Of a DNA stretch of 64,000 bases, positions 46,223-60,307 are shown piece by piece. A program made the position numbers and the translations under genes. The notes under the pieces are model-generated. The model had not been told where the DNA came from, made no database searches, and saw nothing but the letters and a program-made list of their open reading frames with translations. Source of the stretch: Faecalibacterium prausnitzii (GTDB lineage Bacteria > Bacillota > Clostridia > Oscillospirales > Ruminococcaceae). Where the stretch lies: assembly GCF_003324185.1 (NCBI RefSeq), contig NZ_PXUP01000001.1, positions 62,001 to 126,000 of the forward strand, written 5' to 3'. The stretch's first letter is position 1. Each line of letters opens with the position of its first letter.

Positions 46223-46299
46223 GCGTTGGTAGCTCAGCTGGATAGAGTGACTGACTACGAATCAGTAGGCCGGGGGTTCGAGTCCCTTCCATCGCACCA
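46223..46299 (+). tRNA. tRNA-Arg (anticodon ACG)
   Basis: A 77-nt cloverleaf with encoded CCA; the anticodon stem ACTGA/TCAGT encloses CTACGAA. The ACG anticodon reads CGN arginine codons after inosine modification. The acceptor stem GCGTTGG/CCATCGC has a U-U mismatch at pair 4-69, and the T-stem has two G-U pairs. Its last 45 nt are the attachment core of the mobile element. Confidence 0.93.
46255..46299 (+). repeat. attL core: 45-bp tRNA 3' end
   Basis: Runs from the anticodon loop to CCA of the tRNA. Identical to 60211-60255. Confidence 0.92.
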
Positions 46300-46304
46300 G
46301 AAAA

Positions 46305-46337
46305 TGCCGTGAAATCGAAAGATTTCATGGCTTTTTT
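46305..46337 (+). terminator. Element-borne terminator behind tRNA
   Basis: GCCGTGAAATC pairs with GATTTCATGGC, then TTTTTTG. It replaces the tRNA's original terminator, now at 60264. Confidence 0.8.
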
Positions 46338-46354
46338 GTTTTGTAAGCCATGGT

Positions 46355-46384
46355 TGCACGGTTTCTGCACGGTTTTTGCACGGT
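46355..46384 (+). repeat. Integrase arm-type repeats, left end
   Basis: Three TGCACGGT units at 46355, 46366 and 46377, exactly 11 bp apart, 56 bp from the attL core. The same array occurs at 60041-60070. Confidence 0.75.
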
Positions 46385-46449
46385 CGGTGTTATCCATGTC
46401 CGATGATGTAGGGCGCTGTATTGCATTGCAATCAGTGCCCTTTTTTGCA

Positions 46450-47838
46450 TCAGGTGAGCAGGGCCAGGCGGAGCTTTGCCTTCATTTCCGGGTCGGCATC
46501 CTTGAGCAACTCCAGCAGAGCCGTCATGGAGATGGTGGGTTCGCCTGCGGCGGGTACAGCCTGCGGGCTGGGGGTGTCGGGCTTGGCATAGAAGCCGCTT
46601 TCAAACTTCTTGCCCAGCTCCACACGGGAGGACTGCTGGATATGGGCGTAGGTGTTCACCAGCATATCCGCACTGGCGTGTCCCGTAGTCCCCTGCACCG
46701 CCTTGATGTCGCCGCCGGAGATCATTAGTTGGTAGGTGGCACTGGAATGCCGCAGACCGTGGAACACGATGCGGGGGAACTCCGGGTGTGCGTCCTGCCA
46801 CTTCAGGAACTTCTTGCGGATGAGCACCGGCTCCACCGCCAGACCGTTGGGCAGCCGCAGCAGCATCCCGCTGTTGCGGTACCGCTCCGGGTCGAGGGCT
46901 TCTTCCCGCTTCAGCCGTTCCAGCCACTGCTTCAGCTCCTCCCGCAGGGCGGCGGTCATGAAGATGGTGCGGCAGGAGGCCTCGGTCTTGGTGTCCTTCA
47001 GGATGAGGGAGGTCTTGCTGCCCTCCAGCTTGTCCGGGAAGATGCGGAGGATGCAGCCCTTGTCCACCTGTGCCAGCGTGTCCTTCTGCACCCGCTGCAT
47101 GGAACGGTTGACGGTGAAGGTGCCCATGCCGTTGGCGGCATCAAAGTCGATGTCCTCCGGGGTCAGACCTGCCACCTCCCCTTCTCGCAGCGCACCCACC
47201 AGCGTCAGGTGCACCGCCAGATGCAGGATGGGGTCCTCCATGCTGTCCAGCGCTGCCCGCATCTCGTCCACCTCCCAGATGCTGCGCTCTTGGGTGGTCT
47301 TTTTGGGTGCTTCCACCGGGACGGGGCTTTTGATGAGGATGCCCCACTCCACCGCCAGCAGAAAGGAATTGTGCAGCAGTTGGTGGACTTCATGGAGGGT
47401 AGTGCCGGAGAGGGTGCGCTTCTGCTGCTTGGGCGAGAGGTCTCGCCGCTTGCCGCCCACATACTGTCCGCAAGGGGTCTTGCTCAGGGTGTCGTACAGG
47501 GCTTCGATGTGGTAGGGCCGCAGCTTCTGCATCTGCATCTCCCCGATATAAGGGATGATGAGGTTCTGGATGAGCGCCAGATTGGACTGGTAGGTCTTGG
47601 GTGCCCACTTGTGCTTGCTGCACTGCTTGGGCAGCCAGTCCATCAGGAACTCCGCCACCGTCACGGTGGACGGGATCAGGAAATTGCCGGTCGCCAGCTC
47701 ATGCTCGATCTGTTTCTGGCGTTTCACCGCCTCCTCCTTGGTGGGAAAGCTCTCCCATTTGTCGCAGCTCTTGCCGTGCTCGTCCTGATAGGTGTAGCGG
47801 ACGCTGTAAGAGCTGCCGCGTTTCGTGATATATGCCAT
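46450..47838 (-). CDS. int: Tyrosine integrase
   Basis: The 462-aa site-specific recombinase has an N-terminal AP2-like arm-binding domain (about 1-50), a SAM-like core-binding domain (about 60-180) and the catalytic domain. Active residues are visible in GALREGE, HGLRHSSAT, TGHAS and the nucleophile region NTYAH. It lies next to the attL tRNA and should drive integration and excision. The last about 45 residues extend past the catalytic tyrosine. It is the terminal gene of the minus-strand backbone. Confidence 0.95.
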   Translation of the reverse strand: MAYITKRGSSYSVRYTYQDEHGKSCDKWESFPTKEEAVKRQKQIEHELATGNFLIPSTVTVAEFLMDWLPKQCSKHKWAPKTYQSNLALIQNLIIPYIGEMQMQKLRPYHIEALYDTLSKTPCGQYVGGKRRDLSPKQQKRTLSGTTLHEVHQLLHNSFLLAVEWGILIKSPVPVEAPKKTTQERSIWEVDEMRAALDSMEDPILHLAVHLTLVGALREGEVAGLTPEDIDFDAANGMGTFTVNRSMQRVQKDTLAQVDKGCILRIFPDKLEGSKTSLILKDTKTEASCRTIFMTAALREELKQWLERLKREEALDPERYRNSGMLLRLPNGLAVEPVLIRKKFLKWQDAHPEFPRIVFHGLRHSSATYQLMISGGDIKAVQGTTGHASADMLVNTYAHIQQSSRVELGKKFESGFYAKPDTPSPQAVPAAGEPTISMTALLELLKDADPEMKAKLRLALLT

Positions 47839-47853
47839 AGATTTGCCTCCTTA

Positions 47854-48159
47854 TCAAGCTGCCCGGTAGAGCCACGCATCGAAGCTGTCTTTCGGGATGC
47901 GGATGCTTCCGCCTGCCCGCAGGACACGGAACTCGGTGGTGCTGTTGCACAGGTTGTAGGCGGCACGCTGGCTGATGGCCAGCATCTGTGCGACCTCCTT
48001 TACCGTGTACACCAGCGTCGGGGCTTTAGGGCTGTTGGTCGGAGACTTGACGGCATTGGTTCGAGTGACCACCTCCATTGTAGTCGGATCAGAGTCCGAC
48101 TGCAAGGACTTTTTCGTATAATCCAAAGATTTCACATTCTCGTACATTTTATTACACAT
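47854..48159 (-). CDS. xis: Excisionase-like HTH protein
   Basis: The product of about 101 aa has a C-terminal MerR/HTH_17-type fold (YTVKEVAQMLAISQRAAYNL, then FRVLRAGGSIRIPKDSFDAWL), common in recombination directionality factors. It lies 15 bp upstream of the integrase. The ATG at 48159 has AAGGAG at good spacing; ATG 48165 is too close. Function as excisionase is inferred from fold and position. The N-terminal 50 residues are polar and likely flexible. Confidence 0.78.
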   Translation of the reverse strand: MCNKMYENVKSLDYTKKSLQSDSDPTTMEVVTRTNAVKSPTNSPKAPTLVYTVKEVAQMLAISQRAAYNLCNSTTEFRVLRAGGSIRIPKDSFDAWLYRAA

Positions 48160-48171
48160 AGGCATTGCTCC

Positions 48172-49146
48172 TTACTTATCATGGTGCATCGCAGGCTCCT
48201 GCGTGCGGTTCTCATAAAATCGAATGACCTCCGGCGGGATGCTGTCCAGCGTTTTCAGGGCGGCTTCATAGTCCTGTCGCAGCTTGGCATCCTCCAGACG
48301 CTTCAAGACGCTCCCCTCCTTCGCTTTGTCCAGCGAGGCAGAGAGCGTCTTGTTCTTCTCTTTCAGCTTTTCGTTTTCGGCGGCGGTCTTGGTGAAGGCT
48401 ACATTGTACTTCCGCAGCTGGTCCTTCATCCGTGCCACGTTGGGGATATAGCTGTCCAGCACCTTGCTGATCTCCGCCGCACGGCTCTTGCCGTTGAAGG
48501 GGTTGATGCCCACCAGCAGGGCGTCCAACTGCTCCTTCTGCTTGGTCAGCTGGGTCATCTCCTTGAAGATGCGGGGCGGGATGTGCTCTCGCCCGGTCTG
48601 ACTGGCGCTTTCACCCCGTTCCAGTTCCGGGTACTGCTTGACCATGTGCTGCCAGAACTCGTCTTGCCACTTCACAAGGTTCTTGCGGTTGCCGATGATC
48701 TCCTTAGCACTCAACCGCCCGTCTGCGGTCAAGGGCACAAAGCAGAGGTGCAGGTGGGGCGTTTTCTCGTCCATGTGGACAACGGCAGAGAGAAAAGTGT
48801 CCGGACGCTGTCTGCCCTCCAAAAATTTCAAGGCGTACGCAAAGTACGCCCTGATCTCCCGGTTGCTTTTATCCTTGAAGAACTCCGGGCTGGCGGTGAC
48901 GAGAGCCTCCACCACCCGCACGCTGTCCTTGCGGACACGGCAGTGGGCGGCGGCTATCATGCGGTCGGCTTCTTCCCGGTATTTGCCCTGCGGCTGCACC
49001 AGATGGAGGTTGTAGCGGCTCCGGCTCGTGTCGATATCCGGGTTGCTGGCGTACTGCTCCTTGGTGCGCTCGTTATGGGCCTCGATGGGGCTGATGGCAG
49101 GCCCCTTGTATTTTTTGAATCTTAAAATGCCGTATTGGGCTTTCAT
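48172..49146 (-). CDS. mob: MobV-family relaxase (Pre/Mob)
   Basis: The 324-aa relaxase would nick the element's oriT and lead the strand to a recipient. The MobV three-histidine motif HMDEKTPHLH (about residues 123-132) and the N-terminal NLHLVQ region are present. A coiled coil spans about 205-300. It is shorter than plasmid Pre proteins (about 400 aa). GTAC-rich repeats immediately upstream are the likely oriT. There are no mating-pair genes, so transfer must use another element's machinery. Confidence 0.9.
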   Translation of the reverse strand: MKAQYGILRFKKYKGPAISPIEAHNERTKEQYASNPDIDTSRSRYNLHLVQPQGKYREEADRMIAAAHCRVRKDSVRVVEALVTASPEFFKDKSNREIRAYFAYALKFLEGRQRPDTFLSAVVHMDEKTPHLHLCFVPLTADGRLSAKEIIGNRKNLVKWQDEFWQHMVKQYPELERGESASQTGREHIPPRIFKEMTQLTKQKEQLDALLVGINPFNGKSRAAEISKVLDSYIPNVARMKDQLRKYNVAFTKTAAENEKLKEKNKTLSASLDKAKEGSVLKRLEDAKLRQDYEAALKTLDSIPPEVIRFYENRTQEPAMHHDK

Positions 49147-49164
49147 AGATCACGCTCCTTCTTT

Positions 49165-49320
49165 GGGTGTACAAAAAATCTGTACGAACTTCAAATAACC
49201 CGTACGGTCTGTACGGCGTACAGAAATCTAAAATACAAACGATGACACGTTTTAATTTGTTTCGATTTGCCGTACAGATGCGTACAAGTACAGACCGTAC
49301 AGGTTGTACGAACTTCTTCC
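49165..49320. repeat. GTAC-palindrome array upstream of mob (candidate oriT or oriV)
   Basis: Ten GTAC words lie in about 140 bp. GTACGGTCTGTAC (49202-49214) is the inverse complement of GTACAGACCGTAC (49288-49300). TGTACGAACTTC occurs at both ends (49181-49192 and 49305-49316). Confidence 0.65.
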
Positions 49321-49336
49321 GTAAAAAATGCACTTT

Positions 49337-50653
49337 TTACGGGCAGGGGTGGACAAGCGGCTCGATGCCCACGAAACCCCGCACCCTGCGGCCACCGGGC
49401 AGGTAGATGTTGTTGGTGGCTTCAAGGTTATAGCGGCGGTCGTTCTGGCGCAGTTCTGCGCTGAAACGGATGGCCGACACGCTGTGACAGGCGTTGTCCT
49501 CGCACCACTGCTTGTAAATGTCGTAGAACTCCTTGGAGCTGATGGAGTAGTCCGCCTTGAAGCGGAAATAGCCCTCGGATTCCATGAAGTCGATGACATT
49601 GTTGCTGCTGCGCTTGATGGTGTCCACGTTGGCGGCGGCACGTTCGCTGACCGTGAAGCGGAAATCGTTCTGCACCAGCCGGTGCAGCCCTTCCAGACAC
49701 CAGAGCAGGATGCCTTCCAACTCGGCGCACATCTTCTCCACAAGGAAGGGGTCATCCGTGCGGTCGGCAGGCTTGTCCTTGGTGGTCAGGATAAGCTGGC
49801 GGCGGAAGAAGCCGTCCGAATGGTCGTACAGTGAAGTCAGCGCACCGTTGCCAAAGCAGAGGAACCGGGCGTAAATGTCCCGCTGGTAGCTTTGGACACC
49901 CTTGCGCTCCAAGTCCAGCTTGGCTTCGGCGGTCACAATGGTCTTGATATAGTTGGTCTTGGGCAGGGCGTTCATGTCCATGTCGTCGTCGATCATCAGC
50001 AGGCGGCGTTCCAGATCGGCACGGGCAAAGCGGTTGTTCTCCACTTTCTGGACGCTGCCATTGCTGGCGGCATCTCCCATGAGCCGTTTCAGCACCAGCC
50101 CGATGCGGGACTTGCCCTCGCCGCCCTTGCCGACAATGAGCATCATCTTCTGCCCCTTGGTGCTGGGGATAAGGCAGTAGCCCAGATATTCCTGCAAGGT
50201 GGGAATGTCAGCATCGTCCAGCAGCTCGTGCAGAAAGGTCAGCCAACGGTCCGGGCTGGCAGCTTTCGGGTCATACCTCACAGGCAGACGGTTCTGGCAG
50301 AACAGCCGACTCTCCTGAAAAGAGCCGTCCGGCAGATGGTACACGCCGTTCTGGAGGTGGATGCAGTCCTGCTCGATGGGAAACGGGTCGGAAAAGGCCA
50401 GCAGCTTGATGGTCTCCAGAATGTTGGTGACCTTTTTGGACAGGCCGGAGGTGACGTATTCCTCGATGTTCTCCAAGATGCGCTGCTTGATCTCACTTTC
50501 GTCCTCCACCGGTCCGTCCAGCGTGTACAGCGTTCCGTTGACGCATTTCAGCGGCCACTGTTCCAGAAAGGCACGTCCAAACTGGACTTCGTCAATTTTC
50601 TTGCCGTTGTACCAGTCCGGCCATAAGGGGTTGCGGGAAATGTTTTTCTTCAT
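49337..50653 (-). CDS. D5/P4-type superfamily 3 helicase
   Basis: The 438-aa protein has the phage/plasmid primase P4-family C-terminal region: a D5_N-like segment (about 60-150), Walker A GKGGEGKSRIG near residue 175, and Walker B LLMIDDDMD. Such helicases unwind element origins. Together with the CHC2 protein encoded upstream it could replicate an excised circle. It lies downstream of the CHC2 gene. The polymerase-primase (AEP) domain often fused to such helicases is absent. Confidence 0.88.
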   Translation of the reverse strand: MKKNISRNPLWPDWYNGKKIDEVQFGRAFLEQWPLKCVNGTLYTLDGPVEDESEIKQRILENIEEYVTSGLSKKVTNILETIKLLAFSDPFPIEQDCIHLQNGVYHLPDGSFQESRLFCQNRLPVRYDPKAASPDRWLTFLHELLDDADIPTLQEYLGYCLIPSTKGQKMMLIVGKGGEGKSRIGLVLKRLMGDAASNGSVQKVENNRFARADLERRLLMIDDDMDMNALPKTNYIKTIVTAEAKLDLERKGVQSYQRDIYARFLCFGNGALTSLYDHSDGFFRRQLILTTKDKPADRTDDPFLVEKMCAELEGILLWCLEGLHRLVQNDFRFTVSERAAANVDTIKRSSNNVIDFMESEGYFRFKADYSISSKEFYDIYKQWCEDNACHSVSAIRFSAELRQNDRRYNLEATNNIYLPGGRRVRGFVGIEPLVHPCP

Positions 50654-50677
50654 AGGGTGGTTCTCCTTTAGAAAAGT

Positions 50678-50712
50678 GAAGTGGCGGGTCTCACGGTGAG
50701 ACCTACCACTTC
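50678..50712. repeat. GTCTCA hairpin between CHC2 gene and helicase
   Basis: GAAGTGGcgGGTCTCA pairs with TGAGACCtaCCACTTC (lower case unpaired). A near copy is at 60542-60578. Confidence 0.65.
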
Positions 50713-50726
50713 AGGTGAATCAATCG

Positions 50727-51329
50727 TCAGGCGCACTTTGCCTGAGCAAGGCGGTCGGTGCGCTCCTCCAGCATCAGCAGGTACGACCCGGACAGCAGTT
50801 GTGTGGCGGCAGCGGCCTTCTGCTGGGGCGTCCCAAATGCAACGCAGTCCGTCAGGTGCTCGATGGTCTCGGTCGTGTGGAGGGCTTCTTCAAACCGTGG
50901 GTCATGCGGTTCCTCCGGGGTGGCGGGCTTGTAGCGCTCCTGCCAGTCGTGCAACAGGTCGAGATAATCGGTCAGCACCCGCAGGCAGTAGGCGATGTCT
51001 GCCCACTGCTCGTCTGTCAGGCCGCGCTTGGGCGGCAGCAGAGCGATGGCATTGGCGGGCGGCTTGTCCGGGTCAAGCCCGAAGTCGTGTATCAGCTTCT
51101 CGGCGGCTTGCCGGGGGTTCAGGTCAAACAGCTTGGCGGTGAGGTCGATGGCATCTCCATTGGCCCCGCAAGCGAAGCAATAATAGTAGGATTCGTTCAG
51201 CATCATACTGGGGTGGTTGTCGGAGTGGAACGGACAGCACACCATGCCATGGCGGTCGGGTCCCATGCCGTACATCTCTCCCACCTGCCGAACGGTGATG
51301 GCGGACTTGATCTTTTGATATAAACTCAA
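50727..51329 (-). CDS. CHC2 zinc-finger protein (DnaG N-terminal-like)
   Basis: The 200-aa protein has a CHC2-type zinc finger (CCPFHSDNHPS...YYYCFACGANGDAID, about residues 30-63) as in DnaG-type primases, but no TOPRIM domain. It may recognise template DNA for priming by a host or element partner. I chose TTG at 51329 with AAAGGAG immediately upstream; a GTG at 51359 is in frame but has no ribosome site. It is the first gene of the leftward backbone operon. Confidence 0.85.
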   Translation of the reverse strand: MSLYQKIKSAITVRQVGEMYGMGPDRHGMVCCPFHSDNHPSMMLNESYYYCFACGANGDAIDLTAKLFDLNPRQAAEKLIHDFGLDPDKPPANAIALLPPKRGLTDEQWADIAYCLRVLTDYLDLLHDWQERYKPATPEEPHDPRFEEALHTTETIEHLTDCVAFGTPQQKAAAATQLLSGSYLLMLEERTDRLAQAKCA

Positions 51330-51781
51330 AATTTCTCCTTTGGTCAAAGGCTCTGGCACGGATCGATTTGATCCCTGCCACGTTCAAAGTCACCGGCGTT
51401 CCCCAAAATGGGAACTTCGGTGAAGCCGGTCTCCCTTGCTGTCTCCCGACAGGAAATCTTTTTGGACTCTGTGTCGGCCCTATGCAGGGCGCTCGCTCCC
51501 CCGATGGGAGGTCTTGGCGGTCTGGGCAGTTCGGACGGTCATTCTGTTGTCAAGGTCCTGTTATGAAAGATATTTCAGAGGGCTTTCGCGGGAAGCCCTT
51601 AATATGTTCGCTGCCGGGGAGTTAATATGTTTTCTTTCTGTCTATAGGATAGCACCGCAATGGCCGCTGTGCCGTATATCCATAATGTCGGAAAACAGGT
51701 GCAGAAACTGCAAAATTCCACGCTTATGGACAGGAACCGCCGGAAGTGGTATACTGTGCAAAAAACATCGGAGGTGCGACC
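51330..51781. promoter_or_regulatory. Divergent control region with hairpins
   Basis: This spacer between the CHC2 gene and the XRE gene holds CACCGgcGTTCCC / GGGAACttCGGTG (about 51392-51424), GGGCTT/AAGCCC (about 51580) and an XRE promoter TGGACA (51727-51732), 17 bp, TATACT (51750-51755). No gene is visible. A small RNA or leader controlling the replication genes is possible. Confidence 0.5.
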
Positions 51782-52597
51782 ATGAACATCAAGCTGACAC
51801 TGGGAGAACGGCTCAAAGACCTGCGTGTGGAGCGGAATCTGAAGCTGGAAACGCTGGCAGAGCAGACGGGTCTGTCCAAATCGGCACTGTCGAAATACGA
51901 GAGCGACGACGTGACCGATCTCAGCATTTATGCAGTGACAACGCTGGCTGAGTTCTATGGCGTGACCACGGACTACCTGCTGGGGGTGACGGAAAACAAA
52001 AAACGCCCAGATGCAGTCCTTTCGGACTTGCATCTGAGCGATGGCGCAGTGGACGTATTAAGGAATGGAAAATTCAATCATCGGCTGCTGTGTGAGCTGA
52101 TCGTGCATGAGAATTTTCAGAGGTTCATGACCGATCTGGAGATCTATGTGGACGGATATGTCAGCGCAAACATTCAAAACCTCAATGCTGGTCTGGAAGC
52201 GACCCGGCAAATGCTGAAAAAGAAGTATGCAGCAGATGAAAACGATCTATACATGAGCACCTTGAAGCTGGGGCAGATCGATGAAGATGAGTACTTTGGC
52301 CGGGTCTTGTACGATGAGTTGGTGGCCATCCTGAAGAACATCAAGACGGAACACCGCAAGGACAAGACCACTTCGGATGGTTCAATGATCGACAACCTGA
52401 TGAAGGAACTGGAGGATGCACAGAAACATGAAGGGTCTGCGGATGAAAAGAAGATTCGAACAGCATTGAAGGCGATCGGCATCAACTACGATAAGCTGAC
52501 AGAAGATGAAAGAAAGCTGATAAAGAAGATCCTTTATAAAACGGCAATGCTGAAACCGGGGACACTTGCAGGCAACCGGGGCAAGCACAGACGCTGA
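51782..52597 (+). CDS. XRE-family transcriptional regulator
   Basis: The 271-aa protein has an N-terminal HTH-XRE (about residues 8-65; LKLETLAEQTGLSKSALSKYE) and a long helical C-terminal region without a recognised domain. It is transcribed divergently from the replication and mobilization operon, the usual place of an element repressor. CGGAGGTGCG precedes the ATG at 51782. There is no ImmA-type peptidase partner. Confidence 0.88.
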   Translation: MNIKLTLGERLKDLRVERNLKLETLAEQTGLSKSALSKYESDDVTDLSIYAVTTLAEFYGVTTDYLLGVTENKKRPDAVLSDLHLSDGAVDVLRNGKFNHRLLCELIVHENFQRFMTDLEIYVDGYVSANIQNLNAGLEATRQMLKKKYAADENDLYMSTLKLGQIDEDEYFGRVLYDELVAILKNIKTEHRKDKTTSDGSMIDNLMKELEDAQKHEGSADEKKIRTALKAIGINYDKLTEDERKLIKKILYKTAMLKPGTLAGNRGKHRR

Positions 52598-52946
52598 TCA
52601 TTTGCTCTGCGCCAGATAGGGAAAAACGCTGCTGCGGCAGGAAGGAGAACGTACACCATTGGTTCCTCTGAAAGCCTGCGCTGGGTGGGCGGAGATCGTC
52701 AACTGCCATGCCCATCCGCGCATCCTTCTGCCACAGAACAGGTGCTTGCCGGAGCCTCTCGCAGCCCCTTTTCCGCATCAGCCGGAACCAAGGTGTAACA
52801 CACTAGACTTTGCAGGCAAAGTCGTGTGCCAACGAGCGTTCCGCCGCTCTTTGGATTCTTCCCGGCAGGGCACTGGAAAATGGGGTGCCCTGTGCAGCAC
52901 GGGGCGCATCCGTTACCTCGCACAAAAAATTGACTGCAAGTTTTAC
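52598..52946 (+). other. Gene-free spacer with CACAC...GTGTG inverted repeat
   Basis: The main feature is an imperfect hairpin CACAC-ACTTTG / CAAAGT-GTGTG (about 52797-52829). An open frame from 52659 looks non-coding. The repeat could be a nic-region relic of another mobile element. Confidence 0.4.
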
Positions 52947-53011
52947 TTGACAATTCGCGGAATATGCACTATCATAGCCATAAGATGAATATAATGTTTA
53001 TAACGATATAC
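52947..53011 (+). promoter_or_regulatory. gntR promoter and probable auto-operator
   Basis: TTGACA (52947-52952), 17 bp, TATCAT (52970-52975). GTTTATAACGATATAC (52996-53011) follows; GTCTATAACGA recurs at 53960 before the PTS operon. Confidence 0.7.
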
Positions 53012-53034
53012 TCAATTTGAGGGTGAGGTATTTC

Positions 53035-53763
53035 ATGGCGATCAATGATAGTGCTGTCGTCCCGCTTTACCAGCAGGTAAAGGATGACATTCGTGCCGCG
53101 ATCGAGAGCGGCAAGTACAAAACCAACGAAAAGATCCCTCCGGAGCCGGAACTGAGCGCGGAGTATTCGGTCAGCCGCATCACGGTGCGCCGTGCCGTGG
53201 AAGAACTGTGCGCCGAAGGGTATCTGGTCAAAATGCAGGGGCGGGGCACCTTTGTCAGTAAGCCCCGCATCCATCGCAAGTTTACCAGCGGCAGAGGTGC
53301 TGCCAGCTTTACGGAGATCTGCAAAGAAAACGGCATGGTGCCGGGTGCCCGGCTGCTGAACCGTCAGATCGTGCCGGTGCGTAAGGATGAGGAAGCCTTC
53401 TTCCATGTAGGCCCGGAAGCCTTGCTCATCTATATCCAGCGTCTGCGCACCGCCGATGGTCAGCCGGTTTTTCTGGAGAACCTGTTCCTGCCCTACGAGC
53501 CTTATAAGAGCCTGATGAGCGAGAACCTCAATGATGTTTCCATGTTTGACGCCATTGAGCACATCTCCGGGCTGCGCCCTGCAACGACCTCCCGCCAGCG
53601 TATCGAGGCAGTGCGAGCCACAGCAGAACAGGCACAGCTGCTCAACCTTTCGCTGGGCGAGCCGCTGCTGTATCTGAACGCCTACTTCCATGACCAATAT
53701 GACCACCCGCTGTGCATCGGGCGGCAGTATTACATTGGAAGCCGGTATATGTTTGAGTTTTAA
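53035..53763 (+). CDS. GntR/HutC-family regulator with UTRA domain
   Basis: The 242-aa protein has an N-terminal winged HTH (PLYQQVKDDIRAAIESGKY...ITVRRAVEELCAEGYL) and a C-terminal UTRA ligand domain (about 90-235), which typically binds a phosphorylated sugar. It is the likely specific regulator of the downstream PTS operon. The start ATG at 53035 follows GGTGAGG. A strong terminator separates it from the operon. Confidence 0.92.
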   Translation: MAINDSAVVPLYQQVKDDIRAAIESGKYKTNEKIPPEPELSAEYSVSRITVRRAVEELCAEGYLVKMQGRGTFVSKPRIHRKFTSGRGAASFTEICKENGMVPGARLLNRQIVPVRKDEEAFFHVGPEALLIYIQRLRTADGQPVFLENLFLPYEPYKSLMSENLNDVSMFDAIEHISGLRPATTSRQRIEAVRATAEQAQLLNLSLGEPLLYLNAYFHDQYDHPLCIGRQYYIGSRYMFEF

Positions 53764-53778
53764 GGGCAGAATTCTGTC

Positions 53779-53822
53779 CAAAAAGAGCGTCTTTTCCACC
53801 CGGAAAAGACGCTCTTTTTGTC
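53779..53822 (+). terminator. gntR terminator
   Basis: AAAGAGCGTCTTTTCC pairs with GGAAAAGACGCTCTTT, then TTG. Confidence 0.85.
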
Positions 53823-53913
53823 GTTCCAAGGAGAATTGTTGGTGAAACTGCTAAAATATAGGGGAGATGCTTTGTGCACTTTACCAAAGTAAAGATTTTT
53901 TTAGAAAAACCTC

Positions 53914-53975
53914 TTGACGTCTGTGCAAAATGTGGTACTATGTACATGACGATTATGACGTCTATAACGAATAGG
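53914..53975 (+). promoter_or_regulatory. PTS operon promoter and operator
   Basis: TTGACG (53914-53919), 16 bp, TACTAT (53936-53941). GTCTATAACGAATAGG at 53960-53975 resembles the site before gntR and lies just downstream of the start site, a repressing position. Confidence 0.65.
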
Positions 53976-54022
53976 ATGATACAGACGTCGAAGAGATGAA
54001 GGAAACACAAGAAAGGTCGTGG

Positions 54023-54451
54023 ATGCGTATGAACCGAATCATTCTTGCTTCGCACGGAGGGCTGTCCGCCGGAATGAAGGACACCGTGCAGATGATCCTT
54101 GGTGAGTTGCCGAACCTTTATGCCCTTGCCACCCTGCGGGATGAGACCGAGCCTATCACGGTGGCGGCACGCCGGTTGCTGGATGGCTTTGCAGCAGAGG
54201 ATGCTGTGTACATCGTGACCGATGTGATGGGCGGCAGCGTGAACAACGAGATGCTGACCCTGCTGCCGGAGTATCCGGCGGTGCACCTGATCTGCGGCAT
54301 GAACGCTTCTCTGGTGCTGACCCTTGCTTCCAACGACGAAGCCCTGACACAGGACGAACTGGCCGAGTGCATTGCAGATGCCAAGGCGCAGATCATTGAT
54401 TGCAACCTGCTGCTGAAAAACGCAGCCCAAGATGAGGAGGATGACCTATGA
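54023..54451 (+). CDS. PTS mannose-family EIIA component
   Basis: The 142-aa EIIA passes phosphate from HPr to EIIB. The phosphorylatable histidine is in ASHGG near residue 11, with the fold signature VTDVMGGSVNNEM. The start at ATG 54023 is 6 nt after AAAGG; ATG 54029 is an alternative. It overlaps EIIB by 4 nt. Mannose-family systems carry IIA and IIB here as separate proteins. Confidence 0.92.
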   Translation: MRMNRIILASHGGLSAGMKDTVQMILGELPNLYALATLRDETEPITVAARRLLDGFAAEDAVYIVTDVMGGSVNNEMLTLLPEYPAVHLICGMNASLVLTLASNDEALTQDELAECIADAKAQIIDCNLLLKNAAQDEEDDL

Positions 54452-54915
54452 TCAAATTAGTACGTCTGGACTACCGCCTGCTGCACGGTCAGGTGGTATT
54501 CTCGTGGACCGGCCATGTGGGCGCACAGCGCATCATCGTGGTGGACGATGACGCTGCCAGCGACGAGATGAAAAAGTCCGCCCTGCTGCTAAGCAAGCCT
54601 GCCGGTGTCCGGGTGAACATCTTTACGGTGGACAAGGCCATCGCCAAGATGCCAAAGGTGGAGCAGCTGGACGAGAAGATCATGATGATCTTCGGCAACA
54701 CCGCTGCGCTGCTCAAGTTCTGCCAGGCATACCCCAAGATCAAAGAGATCAACTACGGCGCTGTGGCAAATAAGCCCGGCTCCAAGGCCTTTGACCAGTC
54801 GGTATTCCTGACCCCGGAGGAGCAGGCAGACACCCAGAAGCTGCTGGATATGGGCATTAAGATCTACAGCCAGCAGACCCCCACCTTTAAGGTAGTACCC
54901 ATCGATCACACCTGA
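54448..54915 (+). CDS. PTS mannose/sorbose-family EIIB component
   Basis: The 155-aa EIIB has the active histidine in DYRLLHGQV and a typical VVDD...KPAGVRVNIF core. It transfers phosphate to the incoming substrate in the IIC-IID channel. Translation is coupled to EIIA (ATGA). Confidence 0.95.
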   Translation: MIKLVRLDYRLLHGQVVFSWTGHVGAQRIIVVDDDAASDEMKKSALLLSKPAGVRVNIFTVDKAIAKMPKVEQLDEKIMMIFGNTAALLKFCQAYPKIKEINYGAVANKPGSKAFDQSVFLTPEEQADTQKLLDMGIKIYSQQTPTFKVVPIDHT

Positions 54916-54946
54916 TCGTAAGGAGATAAGAAGGAGGATTTGACCC

Positions 54947-55756
54947 ATGTTTGTTACCGCATTGCTTCTGGGTCTGGTTGGCGTGTTCTGTATTCTGGAC
55001 TCGCGCATTCTGGGCCGCATGAACTTCGAGCGTCCGCTCATCACCTGCACCATCGTCGGTGCGCTGCTGGGTGATCTGCAGACCGGCCTGACCCTTGGCG
55101 CATCCATCGAGCTGATGAGCCTTGGCATCGTGAACATCGGCGCAGCCGCACCCCCGGACATGAACATGGCTGCCATCATCTGCGCAGCTTTTGCCATCCT
55201 GACCGATGCTTCTGCCGAGACTGCACTGGCGCTGGCCATCCCCATCGCTGTTCTGGGCCAGATGCTGGGCGTGCTGATGCGCACCATCCTGTCCAACTTG
55301 ACCCACGTTGCCGACCACGCCATTGCAGAAGGCAAGTTCCGCAAGGCATGGAGTATGCACATCGTCTGGGGCACAGTGCTGTACAGCCTGATGTACTTCA
55401 TCCCCATTTTCCTGTCCGTCTACTTCGGCACAGATCTGGTGCAGAAGATCGTGGCTTTCATCCCCGCATGGCTGACCGATGGCCTGAACCTCGGCAGTAA
55501 GTTCCTTACCGCTTACGGTATTGCCCTGCTGCTGTCCACCATGCTCAACCGCGACCTGACCGTCTACTTCCTGCTGGGCTTCTTCTTTGTGGGCTATCTG
55601 GGTCTGGATGTTACCGCTGTGGCAATCTTCGCCGCAATTCTGGCTGTGATCCTGACCGGTCTGAAGTATGGCAAGGGCGCACCCGCCGCAGCCGCTGCCG
55701 GTGCAGCTGCTGCCAACCCGGATTACGACCCGCTGGAAGATGACGACGATCTTTGA
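54947..55756 (+). CDS. PTS mannose-family EIIC component
   Basis: The 269-aa multi-helix membrane subunit forms the sugar channel with EIID; the GALLGDLQTGLTLGASIELM motif marks the family. It ends in an Ala-rich linker and acidic tail (DPLEDDDDL). AAGGAGG precedes the ATG. Substrate specificity cannot be read directly. Confidence 0.93.
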   Translation: MFVTALLLGLVGVFCILDSRILGRMNFERPLITCTIVGALLGDLQTGLTLGASIELMSLGIVNIGAAAPPDMNMAAIICAAFAILTDASAETALALAIPIAVLGQMLGVLMRTILSNLTHVADHAIAEGKFRKAWSMHIVWGTVLYSLMYFIPIFLSVYFGTDLVQKIVAFIPAWLTDGLNLGSKFLTAYGIALLLSTMLNRDLTVYFLLGFFFVGYLGLDVTAVAIFAAILAVILTGLKYGKGAPAAAAAGAAAANPDYDPLEDDDDL

Positions 55757-55771
55757 TAGGAGGAAGCTGAA

Positions 55772-56608
55772 ATGAGCAACGCAACCAAGACTGCAAAGCG
55801 CAGCGACTTCAAGAAATACTTCCAGTTTATGTGGCGTTCCCTGAACATTCAGGCCTCCTGGAACTACGAACGTCAGATGAACATGGGCTTTTTGTACGGC
55901 ATCGCTCCCACGCTGGACGAGCTGTACCCCAACGAGAACGACCCCGAGCAGCTGGCGCACAAAAAGGAAGCCTACGAGCGTGAGATGGCGTTCTACAACT
56001 GCACCCCCCAGACCAGTGCCTTTACGCTGGGTCTGGCTGCTTCCATGGAGGAGCAGTACGCCGCCGACCGTGAGAACTTCAACCCGGAGACCATCAACGC
56101 CGTCAAGACCTCGCTGATGGGCCCCCTGTCCGGCGTGGGCGACTCCTTCTTCCAGGGCACTGTCCGCCTGATCGCTTTTGGTCTGGGCATCTCTCTGGCA
56201 CAGCAGGGCAGCGTTCTGGGCCCCATTCTGGCTATGATCATCTCCATCGTCCCCTCTGTGCTGGTCACATGGTTTGCCGGTAAGCTGGGCTACACCATGG
56301 GCAGCAAGTACCTGACCAAGCTCAACGGCGGCATGATGGACAAGTTGATGTACGTCTGCGGCATCGTAGGCCTGATGGTCATTGGTGCCATGGTGGCAAG
56401 CATGGTGGGTTTGACTACCCCCATTACCTTCGCAAGCACCGGTCTGGTGCTGCAGGATGTGCTGAACAGCATTCTGCCGAACCTTCTGAACCTTGGCATC
56501 GTGATGCTGATGTACACCCTGATCCGCAAAAAGGTCAAGACCGGCTGGCTGCTGGGCATCTGCATCGTGGGCGGTGTTGCCATCAACGCCCTTGGTCTGT
56601 TGGTGTAA
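55772..56608 (+). CDS. PTS mannose-family EIID component
   Basis: The 278-aa subunit has an N-terminal soluble part (SLNIQASWNYERQMNMGFLYG, diagnostic for EIID), the GPLSGVGDSFFQG loop and C-terminal helices. It completes the IIABCD set. TAGGAGG precedes the ATG at 55772. Confidence 0.94.
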   Translation: MSNATKTAKRSDFKKYFQFMWRSLNIQASWNYERQMNMGFLYGIAPTLDELYPNENDPEQLAHKKEAYEREMAFYNCTPQTSAFTLGLAASMEEQYAADRENFNPETINAVKTSLMGPLSGVGDSFFQGTVRLIAFGLGISLAQQGSVLGPILAMIISIVPSVLVTWFAGKLGYTMGSKYLTKLNGGMMDKLMYVCGIVGLMVIGAMVASMVGLTTPITFASTGLVLQDVLNSILPNLLNLGIVMLMYTLIRKKVKTGWLLGICIVGGVAINALGLLV

Positions 56609-56695
56609 CCGGGTTTCCGGCTTACATAGATATCCGTACGCCTGTAATTTGTGATTCATCAGAACAAAAAGAAAAATAATTTGGAGGATTGCATT

Positions 56696-57679
56696 ATGTA
56701 TAACATTGATCTGGCAAACGTCAAGTCCATCGTGGCAGACATCGTGGCAAAGCACAACGTGGAGAACGTGGCCTTTGTTGGCTGCGGTGCTTCCAAGGCA
56801 GAGCTGTACCCCGCAAAGTACTTCCTTGCAAACTGCAGCAAGAAGCTGCGTGTAGCACACTACACCGCCAACGAGTTCAACTACGATACCCCCGATTGGC
56901 TGGGCGATACCACTGTGGTCATCACCGCTTCTCTGGGCGGCAGCACCCCTGAGACCGTCAAGGCCAACAGCGTGGCAAAGGCCGCCGGTGCAACCGTTGT
57001 CAGCGTTACCCACGCTGCCGGTTCTGCCCTGACCAAGGAAGCTGACTACACCATCGTCCACGGCTTTGAGGCAAACTACGCCGCCAAGCTGGAAAAGATG
57101 GGCTACGTTCTGGCACTGGCTGTGGAGATCCTGCAGCAGGTGGAGGGCTTTGACAAGTACGACAAGATGATCGAGGGCCTGACCAACGTGTTCGAGGCTG
57201 CCGAGAACGCTGCCAACTCTGCCCGCAAGTCTGCCAAGGAGTTCGCTGAGAAGTACAAGGACGCTCCCGTCGTCTACGTCATGTCCAGCGGCGCTTCCAT
57301 GGAGGTCGCTTACTCCACCTCCATCTGCCTGATGATGGAGATGCAGTGGGTCAACTCCGGCTCCTTCCACAGCGGCGAGTTCTTCCACGGCCCCTTCGAG
57401 ATCGTGGACAAGGACGTGCCCTTCATCCTGCTGATGAACGACGGCAAGACCCGTCCCGTGGATGCCCGCGCACTGACCTTCCTGCACCGCTTCGATGCTC
57501 TGACCACCGTTGTGGATGCAAAGGATTACGGTCTGGGCAATGCTGTGGACAGCAGCGTCATCACCTACTTCAACCCGCTGATGCACACCGCTGTGTTCCG
57601 CGTCTATGCTGAGGAGCTGTCCTACGTTCGTCAGCATCCGCTGACCCTGCGCCGCTATATGTGGAAGCTGGAGTACTAA
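56696..57679 (+). CDS. SIS-domain sugar-amine deglycase (FrlB/GfrF-like)
   Basis: The 327-aa protein has two SIS domains (VAFVGCGASKAELYP and VVYVMSSGASMEVAY), a catalytic-type SGEFFHGPFEI motif and the C-terminus HPLTLRRYMWKLEY seen in fructoselysine-6-phosphate deglycases. It should act on the phosphorylated product of the PTS, splitting an amino sugar or Amadori compound into sugar-6-phosphate and amine. A GlmS-related isomerase role is the alternative. TTGGAGG precedes the ATG at 56696. Confidence 0.82.
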   Translation: MYNIDLANVKSIVADIVAKHNVENVAFVGCGASKAELYPAKYFLANCSKKLRVAHYTANEFNYDTPDWLGDTTVVITASLGGSTPETVKANSVAKAAGATVVSVTHAAGSALTKEADYTIVHGFEANYAAKLEKMGYVLALAVEILQQVEGFDKYDKMIEGLTNVFEAAENAANSARKSAKEFAEKYKDAPVVYVMSSGASMEVAYSTSICLMMEMQWVNSGSFHSGEFFHGPFEIVDKDVPFILLMNDGKTRPVDARALTFLHRFDALTTVVDAKDYGLGNAVDSSVITYFNPLMHTAVFRVYAEELSYVRQHPLTLRRYMWKLEY

Positions 57680-57704
57680 GCGGTCATCCGGGATCAATAG
57701 ACCC

Positions 57705-57742
57705 ATGCTTGGGGGAGGGGCTTGCCCCTCCCCCTTTTTTGA
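57705..57742 (+). terminator. Terminator between SIS and HAD genes
   Basis: GGGGGAGGGG pairs with CCCCTCCCCC around CTTG, then TTTTTT. It may only partly stop transcription. Confidence 0.8.
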
Positions 57743-57760
57743 TGAAGAGGGAAATGAAGA

Positions 57761-58387
57761 ATGATTGAAGCAGTGATTTTTGATATGGATGGGGTGCTGG
57801 CGGATACGGAATATTACTACGAGAACCGCCGTAAAAACTTTCTGCTGGAAAACGGCATCCCCATCCCGGAGGGCAACTTCATCGGCTCCAACGAAAAAGC
57901 CATCTGGGAAGCCATTGTTCCCAACGACCCTGTGCGCCGTCAGGAGATGCTGATGGCTTATCGGGAGTACCGCAAGGCTCGCCCCACTCCCTACGGCAAG
58001 CTTACCGATCCGCAGGCAGAGCCGCTGATGAATGCGCTGCGCAGCTGCGGGCTGAAGGTGGCGGTGGCGTCCTCCAGCGCAGCACCGGATATCATGAAGA
58101 TGCTCACGGAGGGCGGCTTGAAAGCCATGGTGGATTTTGCTTTCAGCGGCGAGGACTGCGCCGCCCATAAGCCTGCACCGGACATCTATCTCAAGGCGCT
58201 GAATGCACTGGGGCTGACGGCAGACAAGGCCATTGCGGTGGAGGATTCTCCCACGGGTATCGCCTCCGCAAAGGCGGCAGGATTAAAGGTTCTGGCACTG
58301 AAGCCCCGCCACGGCGAGCCGCTGGACCAGTCCGCCGCAGACTGCATCATCACCCAGCTGATGGATGTAAAGGAGCATCTGGACTGA
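57761..58387 (+). CDS. HAD-superfamily sugar-phosphatase-like hydrolase
   Basis: The 208-aa HAD protein of the beta-phosphoglucomutase/phosphatase subgroup has motif I DMDGVLADTE, motif II SSSAAP, motif III lysine HKPAPDIY and motif IV EDSPTG. Its place in the operon suggests dephosphorylation or isomerization of a sugar phosphate from the PTS substrate. It follows the SIS gene after a hairpin and is 1 nt from the YitT gene. Confidence 0.88.
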   Translation: MIEAVIFDMDGVLADTEYYYENRRKNFLLENGIPIPEGNFIGSNEKAIWEAIVPNDPVRRQEMLMAYREYRKARPTPYGKLTDPQAEPLMNALRSCGLKVAVASSSAAPDIMKMLTEGGLKAMVDFAFSGEDCAAHKPAPDIYLKALNALGLTADKAIAVEDSPTGIASAKAAGLKVLALKPRHGEPLDQSAADCIITQLMDVKEHLD

Positions 58388-58388
58388 G

Positions 58389-59282
58389 ATGGAAGCGATC
58401 AAGAACGGCCTGCGCAAAAACCTGACCCCAGCACAGCTGTGGAGCGGCGCACGCTTTTTTCTGCTGCTGAATCTGGGACTTATCATCTATGCAGTAGCAC
58501 TGAACTTTTACTGTGCGCCCAACCACTTTGTATTTGGCGGCACCACCGGTCTTTCCATCGTTCTGGCCACCTGCTTTCCGGCTCTGAGCGTCAGCACCTT
58601 TATGTGGATCACCAATGCGGTGCTGGATGTGCTGGGCTGCGTCTTTCTGGGCATAAAGACCATGGGTTGGACACTGTACTCCTCCTTCATGCTCAGCTTT
58701 TATTCCAGTATGTGCGAAAAGATGTTTCCCGTGTCGCAGCCTTTGACGGATGACACTCTTCTGGAGCTGTGCTTTGCGGTGGCGCTGCCTGCCATTGCCA
58801 GCGGCATCGTATTCAACATCGGGGCATCCACCGGCGGCACCGAGATCGTGGCGATGATCCTGCACAAGTACATCAAGGTGGAGATCGGCAGGGCTCTGCT
58901 GCTCAGCGATATCGGCACAGTGCTGTTTGCGGCTTACCTCTACGGCCCGCAGACCGGGATGTACTGCGTGCTGGGACTCATCGGGCGCAGCACCATCGTG
59001 GATACAGCTATCGAGAGCCTGAATCTCCGCAAGGTGTGTACGGTCATCACCTCAAGGCCGGAGCCCATCCGGCATTTCGTTACGGAAACACTGGGACGCA
59101 CAGCGACCCAGCAGAACGCCACCGGCGTGTACACCGGCGAGCCCCGCACCATGATTATGGTGGCGCTGACCCGGCGGCAGGCAGGGCTGCTGCGGGATTT
59201 CCTGCGCCGGGAGGACCCGGAGGCCTTTCTGACCATTGTCAACTCCAGCGAGATCATCGGCAAAGGGTTCCAGTCCATCTGA
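58389..59282 (+). CDS. YitT-family membrane protein (DUF161-DUF2179)
   Basis: The 297-aa protein has 5-6 membrane helices (about 20-190; NFYCAPNHFVFGGTTGLSIVL, GIVFNIGASTGGTEIVAMIL) and a cytosolic C-terminal DUF2179 domain (about 205-295). The biochemical role of the family is unknown. It is the last cargo gene, directly after the HAD gene, so it may handle a product of this pathway, or be a hitchhiker. Confidence 0.88.
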   Translation: MEAIKNGLRKNLTPAQLWSGARFFLLLNLGLIIYAVALNFYCAPNHFVFGGTTGLSIVLATCFPALSVSTFMWITNAVLDVLGCVFLGIKTMGWTLYSSFMLSFYSSMCEKMFPVSQPLTDDTLLELCFAVALPAIASGIVFNIGASTGGTEIVAMILHKYIKVEIGRALLLSDIGTVLFAAYLYGPQTGMYCVLGLIGRSTIVDTAIESLNLRKVCTVITSRPEPIRHFVTETLGRTATQQNATGVYTGEPRTMIMVALTRRQAGLLRDFLRREDPEAFLTIVNSSEIIGKGFQSI

Positions 59283-59287
59283 AAACG

Positions 59288-59334
59288 CAGAATGCCCGCC
59301 CACTGTGGCTTTCCACAGGTGGGCGGGCATTATT
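59288..59334 (+). terminator. Cargo operon terminator
   Basis: AATGCCCGCCCAC pairs with GTGGGCGGGCATT with an inner TGTGG/CCACA stem. Confidence 0.8.
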
Positions 59335-59352
59335 ATATATGGTAAATGGTTG

Positions 59353-59489
59353 TTTACGCTGACTTCCCGGGATTTACGCTGAAAATACGCTGACTTGGCA
59401 TGGTTTACGCTGAATTTACGCTGAAAACGCGCAATCGCGCGAACAAAGCGCGAATAAATCCGGCTGACCGCGAATAAACCGCGAACAAA
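59353..59489. repeat. Nine-unit iteron array with 11/20-bp periodicity
   Basis: TTTACGCTGA-type units start at 59353, 59373, 59384 (AATACGCTGA), 59404 and 59415. CGCGAAYAAA units start at 59438, 59449, 59469 and 59480. Steps are 20, 11, 20, 11, 23, 11, 20, 11. It lies between the last cargo gene and attR with no gene inside. Confidence 0.8.
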
Positions 59490-59644
59490 GATCGCACGGG
59501 CGTGCATTCTTCATGCGTGGGAAGGTGCGACGTGAAAGTTGGAACTTGTAAAAATAAACTGTAATACGATTGAATTTCGGAAAAGTGGAATCGCACGCTG
59601 GAATGCGCGCGTGCAATGTTGCCTGAATAAAAGTCAGCGATAAA

Positions 59645-59686
59645 AACGCGCGCCGCGCGATTAGCATTTTTGCCGCGCGTTTTCTA
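59645..59686. terminator. GC-rich hairpin near right end of element
   Basis: AAAACGCGCG pairs with CGCGCGTTTT. It lies just past the stop of the minus-strand small gene and may terminate it. Confidence 0.55.
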
Positions 59687-59690
59687 AGGC

Positions 59691-59939
59691 TCAATCTTCC
59701 AGCCTGCTATGGTCACAACCCAGCGACAGATAGTGCTCCATCTCCCCTCTCAGCACCATCCGTGCATACTCCAAGGGCTTATTGTACAGCAACCAGTCCA
59801 GCTCTGCCCGCTGTGCCGGGGTGGTGCCGTATTCGTCCTCCACAGCGGCGCAGTCGATGGCAAGAGTGGTGCCATCCTCGAACCGGGCTTCCACCCGGTT
59901 GGTGTCCATGTTGTAGCGGCAGGAAAGCAATTTCGTCAT
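59691..59939 (-). CDS. Small conserved protein (DUF6061-like)
   Basis: The 82-aa acidic protein begins MTKLLSCRYNMDTNRVEARF and resembles small proteins of unknown function (DUF6061 type) that often accompany integrated elements of gut Firmicutes; this is from memory of the family. GGAGG at 8-nt spacing precedes ATG 59939 (ATG 59954 is less likely). No catalytic motif is seen. Confidence 0.65.
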   Translation of the reverse strand: MTKLLSCRYNMDTNRVEARFEDGTTLAIDCAAVEDEYGTTPAQRAELDWLLYNKPLEYARMVLRGEMEHYLSLGCDHSRLED

Positions 59940-60040
59940 AGTCGTATCCTCCAAGACTTGATTTTTGGTGTGCGGTCACTCGAACCAATGCCGTCAAGTC
60001 GTTGTCGGATGAAGTGGATTTTAGTTTGTCTGGGAGTAAG

Positions 60041-60070
60041 TGCACGGTTTCTGCACGGTTTTTGCACGGT
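60041..60070 (+). repeat. Integrase arm-type repeats, right end
   Basis: Three TGCACGGT units at 60041, 60052 and 60063, spaced 11 bp, matching 46355-46384. An inverted relative AAAACGTGCA follows. Confidence 0.75.
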
Positions 60071-60210
60071 TTCAAAACGTGCAAAGGGTGCAAATCGTTG
60101 CAAAATCGGACAAAGGGTGCAGAAACTCGAAGCTCAAAACCTGCGATGTATCGCAAAGAAATGACGCTAAAACGTAACTTCCAAAAATTGAGGGAATCGC
60201 CCGGCGTGCG

Positions 60211-60255
60211 CTACGAATCAGTAGGCCGGGGGTTCGAGTCCCTTCCATCGCACCA
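60211..60255 (+). repeat. attR core: 45-bp copy of tRNA-Arg 3' end
   Basis: Identical to 46255-46299; only the 3' part of the tRNA is present. Confidence 0.92.
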
Positions 60256-60263
60256 AACCATGA

Positions 60264-60307
60264 AAATCCGAACCTTTTCTCAATAGGAGAAGGGTTCGGA
60301 TTTTTTG
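60264..60307 (+). terminator. Original tRNA-Arg terminator, displaced by the element
   Basis: AAATCCGAACC pairs with GGTTCGGATTT, then TTTG, 9 bp after the attR CCA. Confidence 0.8.

Follow-up and report, generated by a model that had tools for sequence, protein, structure and literature searches.

The DNA analysed here is a 64-kb stretch of a Faecalibacterium prausnitzii genome (the window; all coordinates are positions in it), in which a sequence-only reading had placed an integrative mobilizable element (IME) in a tRNA gene, with sugar-uptake genes as its cargo. The window's own genome is called G000, and the host genus is Faecalibacterium. The proteins of the element were identified by Pfam and NCBIfam scans. 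The ends and the backbone were composed of the following features.

46223-46299, plus strand: tRNA-Arg(acg), the integration target (ARAGORN)
46255-46299, plus strand: attachment (att) repeat on the tRNA side, perfect 45-bp direct repeat
46355-46384, plus strand: left arm-type repeats, TGCACGGT units at 11-bp spacing
46450-47838, minus strand: tyrosine integrase with R218, H360xxR and a GH..Y motif
47854-48165, minus strand: excisionase-like HTH_17 protein
48172-49146, minus strand: MobV relaxase with HNER and HxDExxPHxH motifs (NCBIfam NF041497, 151.5 bits against a cut-off of 100)
49186-49316, strand not assigned: GTAC-rich inverted and direct repeats between mobV and the D5 gene
49337-50653, minus strand: protein with P4-family primase C-terminal, D5_N and DUF5906 matches and a Walker A motif
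50727-51359, minus strand: CHC2 zinc-finger primase-like protein
51746-52597, plus strand: helix-turn-helix (HTH) regulator with an RstR-like N terminus (below the cut-off)
52790-52832, minus strand: MobV-type origin of transfer (oriT), where the backbone meets the cargo (sequence comparison, fold)
52822-52816 and 52813-52807, minus strand: arms of the oriT inverted repeat IR1
between 52799 and 52798, minus strand: predicted nick
59691-59954, minus strand: DUF6061 protein, the right-end gene common to element types A and B
60041-60073, plus strand: right arm-type repeats, TGCACGGT unit in the same orientation as at the left end
60211-60255, plus strand: att repeat on the distal side, perfect 45-bp direct repeat
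60256-60310, plus strand: terminator-like right flank, common to several other array ends

The att repeat corresponds to the last 45 bases of the tRNA gene and is the sole repeated 45-mer on the plus strand of the window. The perfect tRNA-end repeat and the adjacent integrase, MobV, D5 and CHC2 genes, all named by the sequence-only reading, were confirmed. The 10-mer TGCACGGTTT occurred five times in the window, always within the arm-type repeats of the two ends, and the 11-bp-spaced TGCACGGT repeats are probably integrase arm sites. Every backbone gene of this copy was open, with the integrase, MobV and Walker A motifs that were checked for. MobV has a Mob_Pre domain with the presumed catalytic His region and the HxDExxPHxH motif, as in the MOBV family, and aligned with PDB entry 4lvi (deposited as a plasmid recombination enzyme) at an E value of 2e-17. 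The excisionase-like protein scored 27.3 bits against TIGR01764, slightly below the cut-off of 28.8. The GTAC-rich repeats possibly form a replication or regulatory site. With its own site-specific recombinase and att repeats, its own relaxase above the cut-off and an oriT predicted from sequence, and with no type IV secretion system family among its scanned proteins, that is, no complete conjugation pore of its own, the region from 46255 to 60255 is very probably an IME in tRNA-Arg(ACG) that carries a metabolic cassette.

Judged by its sequence, the stretch 52790-52832 is a pMV158-type MobV oriT. On the minus strand, IR1 is followed after 8 nt by the G/T step in TAGTGTG/TT, which is the MOBV1-type arrangement of inverted repeat, spacer and nick sequence. 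The oriT of pMV158 is described with a 7-bp inverted repeat 8 nt upstream of its G/T nick, and the MobM site is AAGtaTAGTGTG (PMC5863519). The sequence AAGTnTAGTGTGTT occurred only once in the 64 kb even when two mismatches were allowed, and was not found at one mismatch or fewer in 100 mononucleotide shuffles. The 43-nt oriT stretch folded better than 200 of 200 shuffles (z -2.8), and a 56-nt stretch around it was unremarkable (z -1.4, with 22 of 200 shuffles as good). The MobV search of IMG/VR yielded 23 loci, in 13 of which the MobV is at least 49% identical, and an oriT of the window type was present in 8 of these 13, on the downstream side of the HTH gene and 0.2 to 3.3 kb away from it (0.2 kb in the window); two of the eight, L193 and L198, look alike. 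As for the oriT-negative loci, L187, L189 and L192 had no HTH match, L188 starts inside the HTH gene and L186 had a weak HTH match. Ten further relatives with a similar integrase were compared, and three had an oriT of this type (two with a MobV 67% identical and one with a relaxase 26% identical).

The cargo begins at the oriT and contains the genes of a mannose-family phosphotransferase system (PTS).

52850-59365, plus strand: exchangeable PTS cassette, with limits from the comparison with the type B element of G023
53017-53763, plus strand: GntR-UTRA regulator
53996-54451, plus strand: EIIA, mannose family
54448-54915, plus strand: EIIB, sorbose/mannose family
54947-55756, plus strand: EIIC
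55772-56608, plus strand: EIID
56651-57679, plus strand: SIS protein, fructoselysine-6-phosphate deglycase-like (also by PDB comparison)
57761-58387, plus strand: HAD hydrolase, beta-phosphoglucomutase-like
58389-59282, plus strand: YitT/DUF2179 membrane protein (Pfam)
59353-59424, plus strand: TTTACGCTGA repeats at the right cargo border

The scans confirmed the mannose-family PTS, SIS, HAD, YitT and GntR genes that the sequence-only reading had listed, and support its description of a mobilizable element with sugar-uptake cargo. The true start of the SIS protein may be the ATG 15 codons in (MYNIDL). The present analysis adds the tandem arrays and cargo swaps described below and, within the element itself, an oriT, an excisionase-like gene and 11-bp arm-type repeats near each end.

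We then read the 3' side of the tRNA in 30 of the 31 genomes of the genus; in the remaining one, G024, the tRNA lies off the fetched contig. A 200-base tRNA query matched 60 of 61 genomes searched, own included, the distant ones perhaps through another tRNA. According to integrase matches, an element adjoined the tRNA in 12 of the 30 genomes, with four integrase types: type A in G000, G003, G010, G026 and G028 (99-100% identical to that of the window), type A' in G016 (81%), type B in G005, G007, G012 and G021 (52%) and in G022 (53%), and type C in G023 (24% over 57% of the length). G030 had element ends and no integrase match, and a distant match (23%) adjoined the tRNA in G004 and G013. Contigs of G001, G008, G011 and G017, among others, stop less than 1 kb past the tRNA, leaving the state there undecided. 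At least two elements stood in tandem in eight genomes, G003, G006, G010, G012, G016, G023 and G026, together with G005, whose end sequences are on separate contigs. The locus is a hotspot for such elements. Tandem accretion is known for mobilizable elements (PMC5704250). At their left ends, the type A element of the window and the type B element of G023 have 88 identical bases (46255-46342) although their integrases are 52% identical, and a hairpin within these bases may substitute for the tRNA's own terminator.

The sequence-only reading had proposed to look for the same backbone with other cargo, and this check came out positive, with the full gene set in G023 and G006 and with part of it in G003 and G028. 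In type A elements without PTS genes, homology to the window ran until 52832 (G003, G023, G006) or 52892 (G028) and resumed at 59414-59691 through the att repeat; G003 additionally matched 59354-59427. The type A element of G006 was 99% identical to the window in its integrase, 98% in MobV and 99% in D5. One representative per cluster was scanned for cargo families. Type A elements carried UDP-sugar dehydrogenase, deacetylase and glycosyltransferase genes for exopolysaccharide (G003, G023), a type II restriction-modification system with Vsr (G006), or methylase/ResIII and Schlafen-like genes (G028 and a G016 contig), and the A' element of G012 carried radical-SAM and MFS genes. In type B we found a type III restriction-modification system with a TIR protein (G012, G021, G005), two-component and ABC genes (G007, G003; a second type B element of G012 has the two-component pair), kinase, sugar transporter and ROK genes (a G016 contig) and another mannose PTS (G010). 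The statement that the cargo is metabolic rather than resistance or defence therefore stands for the window copy and does not extend to its kin, since the type A element of G006 carries restriction-modification genes.

The PTS cassette itself was present in type A elements (G000, G010, G026) and in type B elements (G023, G006). The homology on type B covered 52850-59365 at 97.8% DNA identity in G023 and 52849-59442 at 96.0-96.1% in G006. These type B elements have an integrase 52% identical to that of the window; the relaxase of the one in G023 belongs to another family, PF03432. The TTTACGCTGA repeats border the cargo at the right in PTS-bearing A and B elements and in some other A elements. 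In the 31 genomes of the genus, SIS was 99-100% identical in five (own included), 81% in G024 and 41-42% in G013 and G016. All five copies at 99-100% lie in elements at the tRNA-Arg locus (in G006, 24 kb from the tRNA), and the G024 copy, whose left side leaves the contig, terminates in an A'-type end at the same att. Among 396 genomes of the family, SIS was found at E of 1e-120 or below in two (own and G245, of another genus, 83% identical) and the integrase at E of 1e-200 or below in five, all in the genus; this draw includes only 7 of the 31 genus genomes and is no substitute for the 31-genome search.

To locate the cargo border, 15 chosen element pairs, some at other sites, were compared for where DNA homology ends relative to the oriT. 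In all 13 pairs with different cargo it ended 0, 0, 1, 1, 1, 12, 33, 33, 37, 37, 61, 64 and 66 bp past the oriT, and in the two pairs with like cargo it extended 2608 and 1029 bp past it. The cargo proteins of the 13 pairs do not match each other (for three elements the cargo was compared by blastp, without a Pfam scan). The comparison shows a bay of exchangeable cargo between the oriT and the right end with DUF6061, so that cargo in relatives can be sought by a simple rule.

The backbone modules varied too. Locus L213 (G012:C1:2743500-2763000) has an integrase 82% and a relaxase 26% like those of the window, a D5 protein at 99% and the same oriT type, and its cargo resembles that of the A' element in the same genome; modules here recombine separately. 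Further integrases of the same family (76-78% protein identity) are present in the own genome at G000:C13:211616-213447, C39 and C76. A perfect 27-mer lies in the excisionase (xis) coding region (48044-48070, minus strand) and, inverted, upstream of the DUF6061 gene (59974-60000, plus strand). The two copies have changes in common in A' elements (G012, G016) and in the own genome's C39 element, so a single factor may bind both, or else the leader RNA of DUF6061 (fold z -2.5) may pair with xis mRNA; against strict pairing, the copies differ by 1 in G010, 2 in G028 and 3 in G006.

Next, the identity of the element was compared with that of the core gene tig. Between G000 and G010 or G026, tig was 81% identical, and the cassette was 98.3% (G010) and 96.5% (G026) identical. 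Because the hosts are only 81% alike in tig, the cassette must have moved between species. The int-mobV stretch was 93.9% (G010) and 94.1% (G026) identical, and therefore the backbone itself moved as well. In G023 and G006, tig was 98% and 97% identical, so that the cassette identity there is uninformative on interspecies transfer; what the compared sequences do show in these two genomes, through the change of backbone, is movement of the cassette. Possible helpers in the own genome are nine matches to the VirD4 family, two of which are fragments of a single gene. A megablast search of the plasmid collection gave no match.

A search for an empty site, with the tRNA followed directly by the terminator sequence, had also been proposed and likewise came out positive. 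The tRNA was directly followed by a 60256-type terminator sequence in G017 (93%), G008 (91%) and G006 (91%). This observation is weakened by the short contigs of G017 and G008, which end 0.4 and 0.8 kb further on, by the displaced array of G006, where some 24 kb separate the tRNA from a PTS element and a type A element downstream of it and the left att is reduced to its last bases, and by the terminator-like sequence, which also occurs elsewhere in the genus. The right flank was tried as a locator of empty sites and rejected. Its first 450 bases are largely dispersed repeat, with 60330-60700 consisting of repeats found many times across Faecalibacterium genomes; the mannitol PTS gene (mtlA) had a match at E of 1e-80 or below in 2 of the 31 genus genomes, own included; and of 38 called open reading frames (ORFs) in about 44 kb downstream, one (dehydrogenase-like) was matched in the fetched stretches of other genomes. 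Therefore, only the tRNA-terminator junction was usable. In the mannitol PTS gene (61215-63194), the family match sets in only at about residue 85 of the model (residue 99 of the query), and a divergent regulator ORF overlaps the gene start; this points to a deletion or a join made in assembly.

Several observations weigh against a mobile element as described. The exact 76-base attP pattern, a strict one, gave no match in viral_contigs. In the stretches fetched from other genomes, the right flank of the window (HPr, mtlA) could be followed beside the tRNA for no more than about 120 bp. G003 lacks matches to both D5 and CHC2, and in G028 D5 is unmatched and the mobV match is split in two; some relatives are therefore incomplete or have another replication module. 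The oriT of the window type was absent in 7 of the 10 further relatives with a similar integrase. Finally, the 13 pairs that define the cargo bay share ancestry and are not independent events; since they were also chosen, they support a structural rule and not 13 events. The missing attP junction, the split mobV of G028 and the truncated att of G006 would fit a decayed, immobile island whose att repeats and genes are relics and whose cassette moved only by homologous recombination between chromosomal islands. We consider this improbable, because all backbone genes of the window copy are open with the checked motifs and because the int-mobV stretch is far more alike between G000 and G010 or G026 than tig is. 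Transport by a helper phage, as for a satellite of the phage-inducible chromosomal island (PICI) or P4 kind, would account for the integrase, the AlpA-like Xis, the P4-type primase and the D5 domains, and parts of the element have matches in nine records that were deposited under the name Bacteriophage sp. Four of the nine (MT837704, MT837045, MT839795, MT836827) were considered as circular forms and rejected: they match in pieces and have no exact terminal repeats of 15-399 bases, so we do not count them as evidence for a circular form. Over 6.1 kb, MT837704 has 99.5% identity with the junction of A' and B in the G012 chromosomal array. With a complete MobV relaxase and a matching oriT, and with no capsid, terminase or packaging/hijack family in the Pfam and NCBIfam scans of the element's proteins (PHROGs were left out), a phage satellite is highly implausible, and the IME remains the preferred reading.

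The content of the cassette, with mannose-family EIIA to EIID and an SIS protein, agrees with that of a gfr (fructoselysine) operon. The nearest PDB entries of SIS were 3fkj (putative phosphosugar isomerases, E 3e-81) and 9otj (SIS domain protein, E 3e-77), followed by 3eua, a putative fructose-aminoacid-6-phosphate deglycase (E 4e-75). However, SIS reached only 111 bits in the fructoselysine-6-phosphate deglycase model, for which the cut-off is 430, and its substrate is therefore uncertain. There is some chance, smaller than that of the gfr-type function, that the cassette imports another sugar, such as an amino sugar, with SIS acting as an isomerase or deaminase. SIS is a broad superfamily, its score falls short of the deglycase model, and a single SIS gene is present here, Salmonella having gfrE and gfrF. 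The best solved relatives, 3fkj, 9otj and 3eua, and the published annotation as gfr of an operon whose described content is the same (PMC12136445) speak against another sugar. To judge from the families and the published operon annotation, the most likely function is thus to import and cleave an Amadori compound, for instance fructoselysine. Among 79 loci with an SIS relative in named genomes, EIIA-D matches were present in 38, with HAD in 36 of these 38; only 2 of the 79 had an integrase match, both of them Faecalibacterium.

A transfer cycle can be proposed from these components. Int with Xis would excise the element as a circle, MobV would nick the oriT at 52799/52798, and a resident conjugative system would export the strand; given the polarity of the nick, the backbone would lead and the cargo would trail on entry into the recipient. 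Replication or second-strand synthesis would be supported by the primase and helicase proteins, and Int would re-integrate the element into the recipient tRNA-Arg or into an att copy of a resident element, giving the tandem arrays that were observed. Mob/Pre proteins can recombine oriT/RSA sites without RecA (PMC5714925, PMC5703833). It is therefore possible that the oriT acts as a cargo port, MobV (Mob/Pre) both starting transfer and joining oriT sites, with entire metabolic or defence cassettes traded at the oriT edge and by DUF6061-end homology and the tRNA-Arg array working as a cassette exchange. We regard this as rather unlikely and dropped it as a main claim, because homologous recombination in the backbone and the right end explains the type A swaps equally well and because type B elements gave no match to the oriT palindrome.

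The cassette can be related to a published trait. A 2025 microSLAM study reported, in its available text, that the F. prausnitzii gfr operon is commoner in healthy guts than in those with inflammatory bowel disease, one subunit gene passing multiple testing in one species and the others having unadjusted p <0.05 (PMC12136445). The operon is described there with seven genes, sometimes an eighth, and one deglycase, in 49 of 85 NCBI genomes (printed as 53%), often on contigs called plasmids and with mobile-element sequences nearby; that text identified no vehicle and asked for work on how F. prausnitzii acquires and spreads the operon (PMC12136445). Likened by this description alone, the cassette agrees with the operon in gene content: the genus, the regulator, the four PTS subunits, the one deglycase, the gene without a Salmonella counterpart, the occasional eighth gene and the patchy presence are alike (PMC12136445). 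A MobV/primase backbone would account for the plasmid-like call of gfr contigs. General reports describe many mobilizable elements in Faecalibacterium (PMC6295017, PMC12716062, PMC6907783), and a search of the literature on such elements and on fructoselysine, with most subscription papers and the element databases outside it, returned no account of this vehicle. The elements are a concrete candidate vehicle for the gfr operon, with the tRNA port, att core, relaxase and predicted nick site identified, and make the question of its spread testable. That an almost identical operon is carried in related strains by another, unrelated type of island points to a way in which a trait with an earlier link to gut health may be passed on. 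Should the operons prove the same, whether a strain has the trait would depend on carriage of a mobile element more than on lineage.

Compared with known systems, as far as the available descriptions go, the cassette resembles Salmonella gfrABCDEF as a mannose-family PTS with a deglycase and differs from it in having one deglycase instead of two, a GntR-UTRA regulator and added HAD and YitT genes (PMC12675984). Like Tn4451, Tn6215 and IMESag-rpsI, the element has its own integrase and MobV and no transfer pore of its own, and would need a helper; unlike them, by description, it targets tRNA-Arg(ACG), has a P4-type primase and CHC2, carries metabolic cargo and has its oriT where the cargo starts, some 3.6 kb away from mobV (PMC5704250). 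It shares with the MobM-Pre systems of pMV158 and pT181 the relaxase family, the oriT inverted repeat, the spacing and the nick sequence, and differs in being an integrated element and not a rolling-circle plasmid; its oriT is also distant from the gene of the relaxase, while that of pMV158 is found immediately upstream of mobM (PMC5863519, PMC5714925, PMC5703833). MobV elements and tandem accretion are of kinds already known, and what is new is this family, its oriT-bounded cargo bay and its link to the gfr operon.

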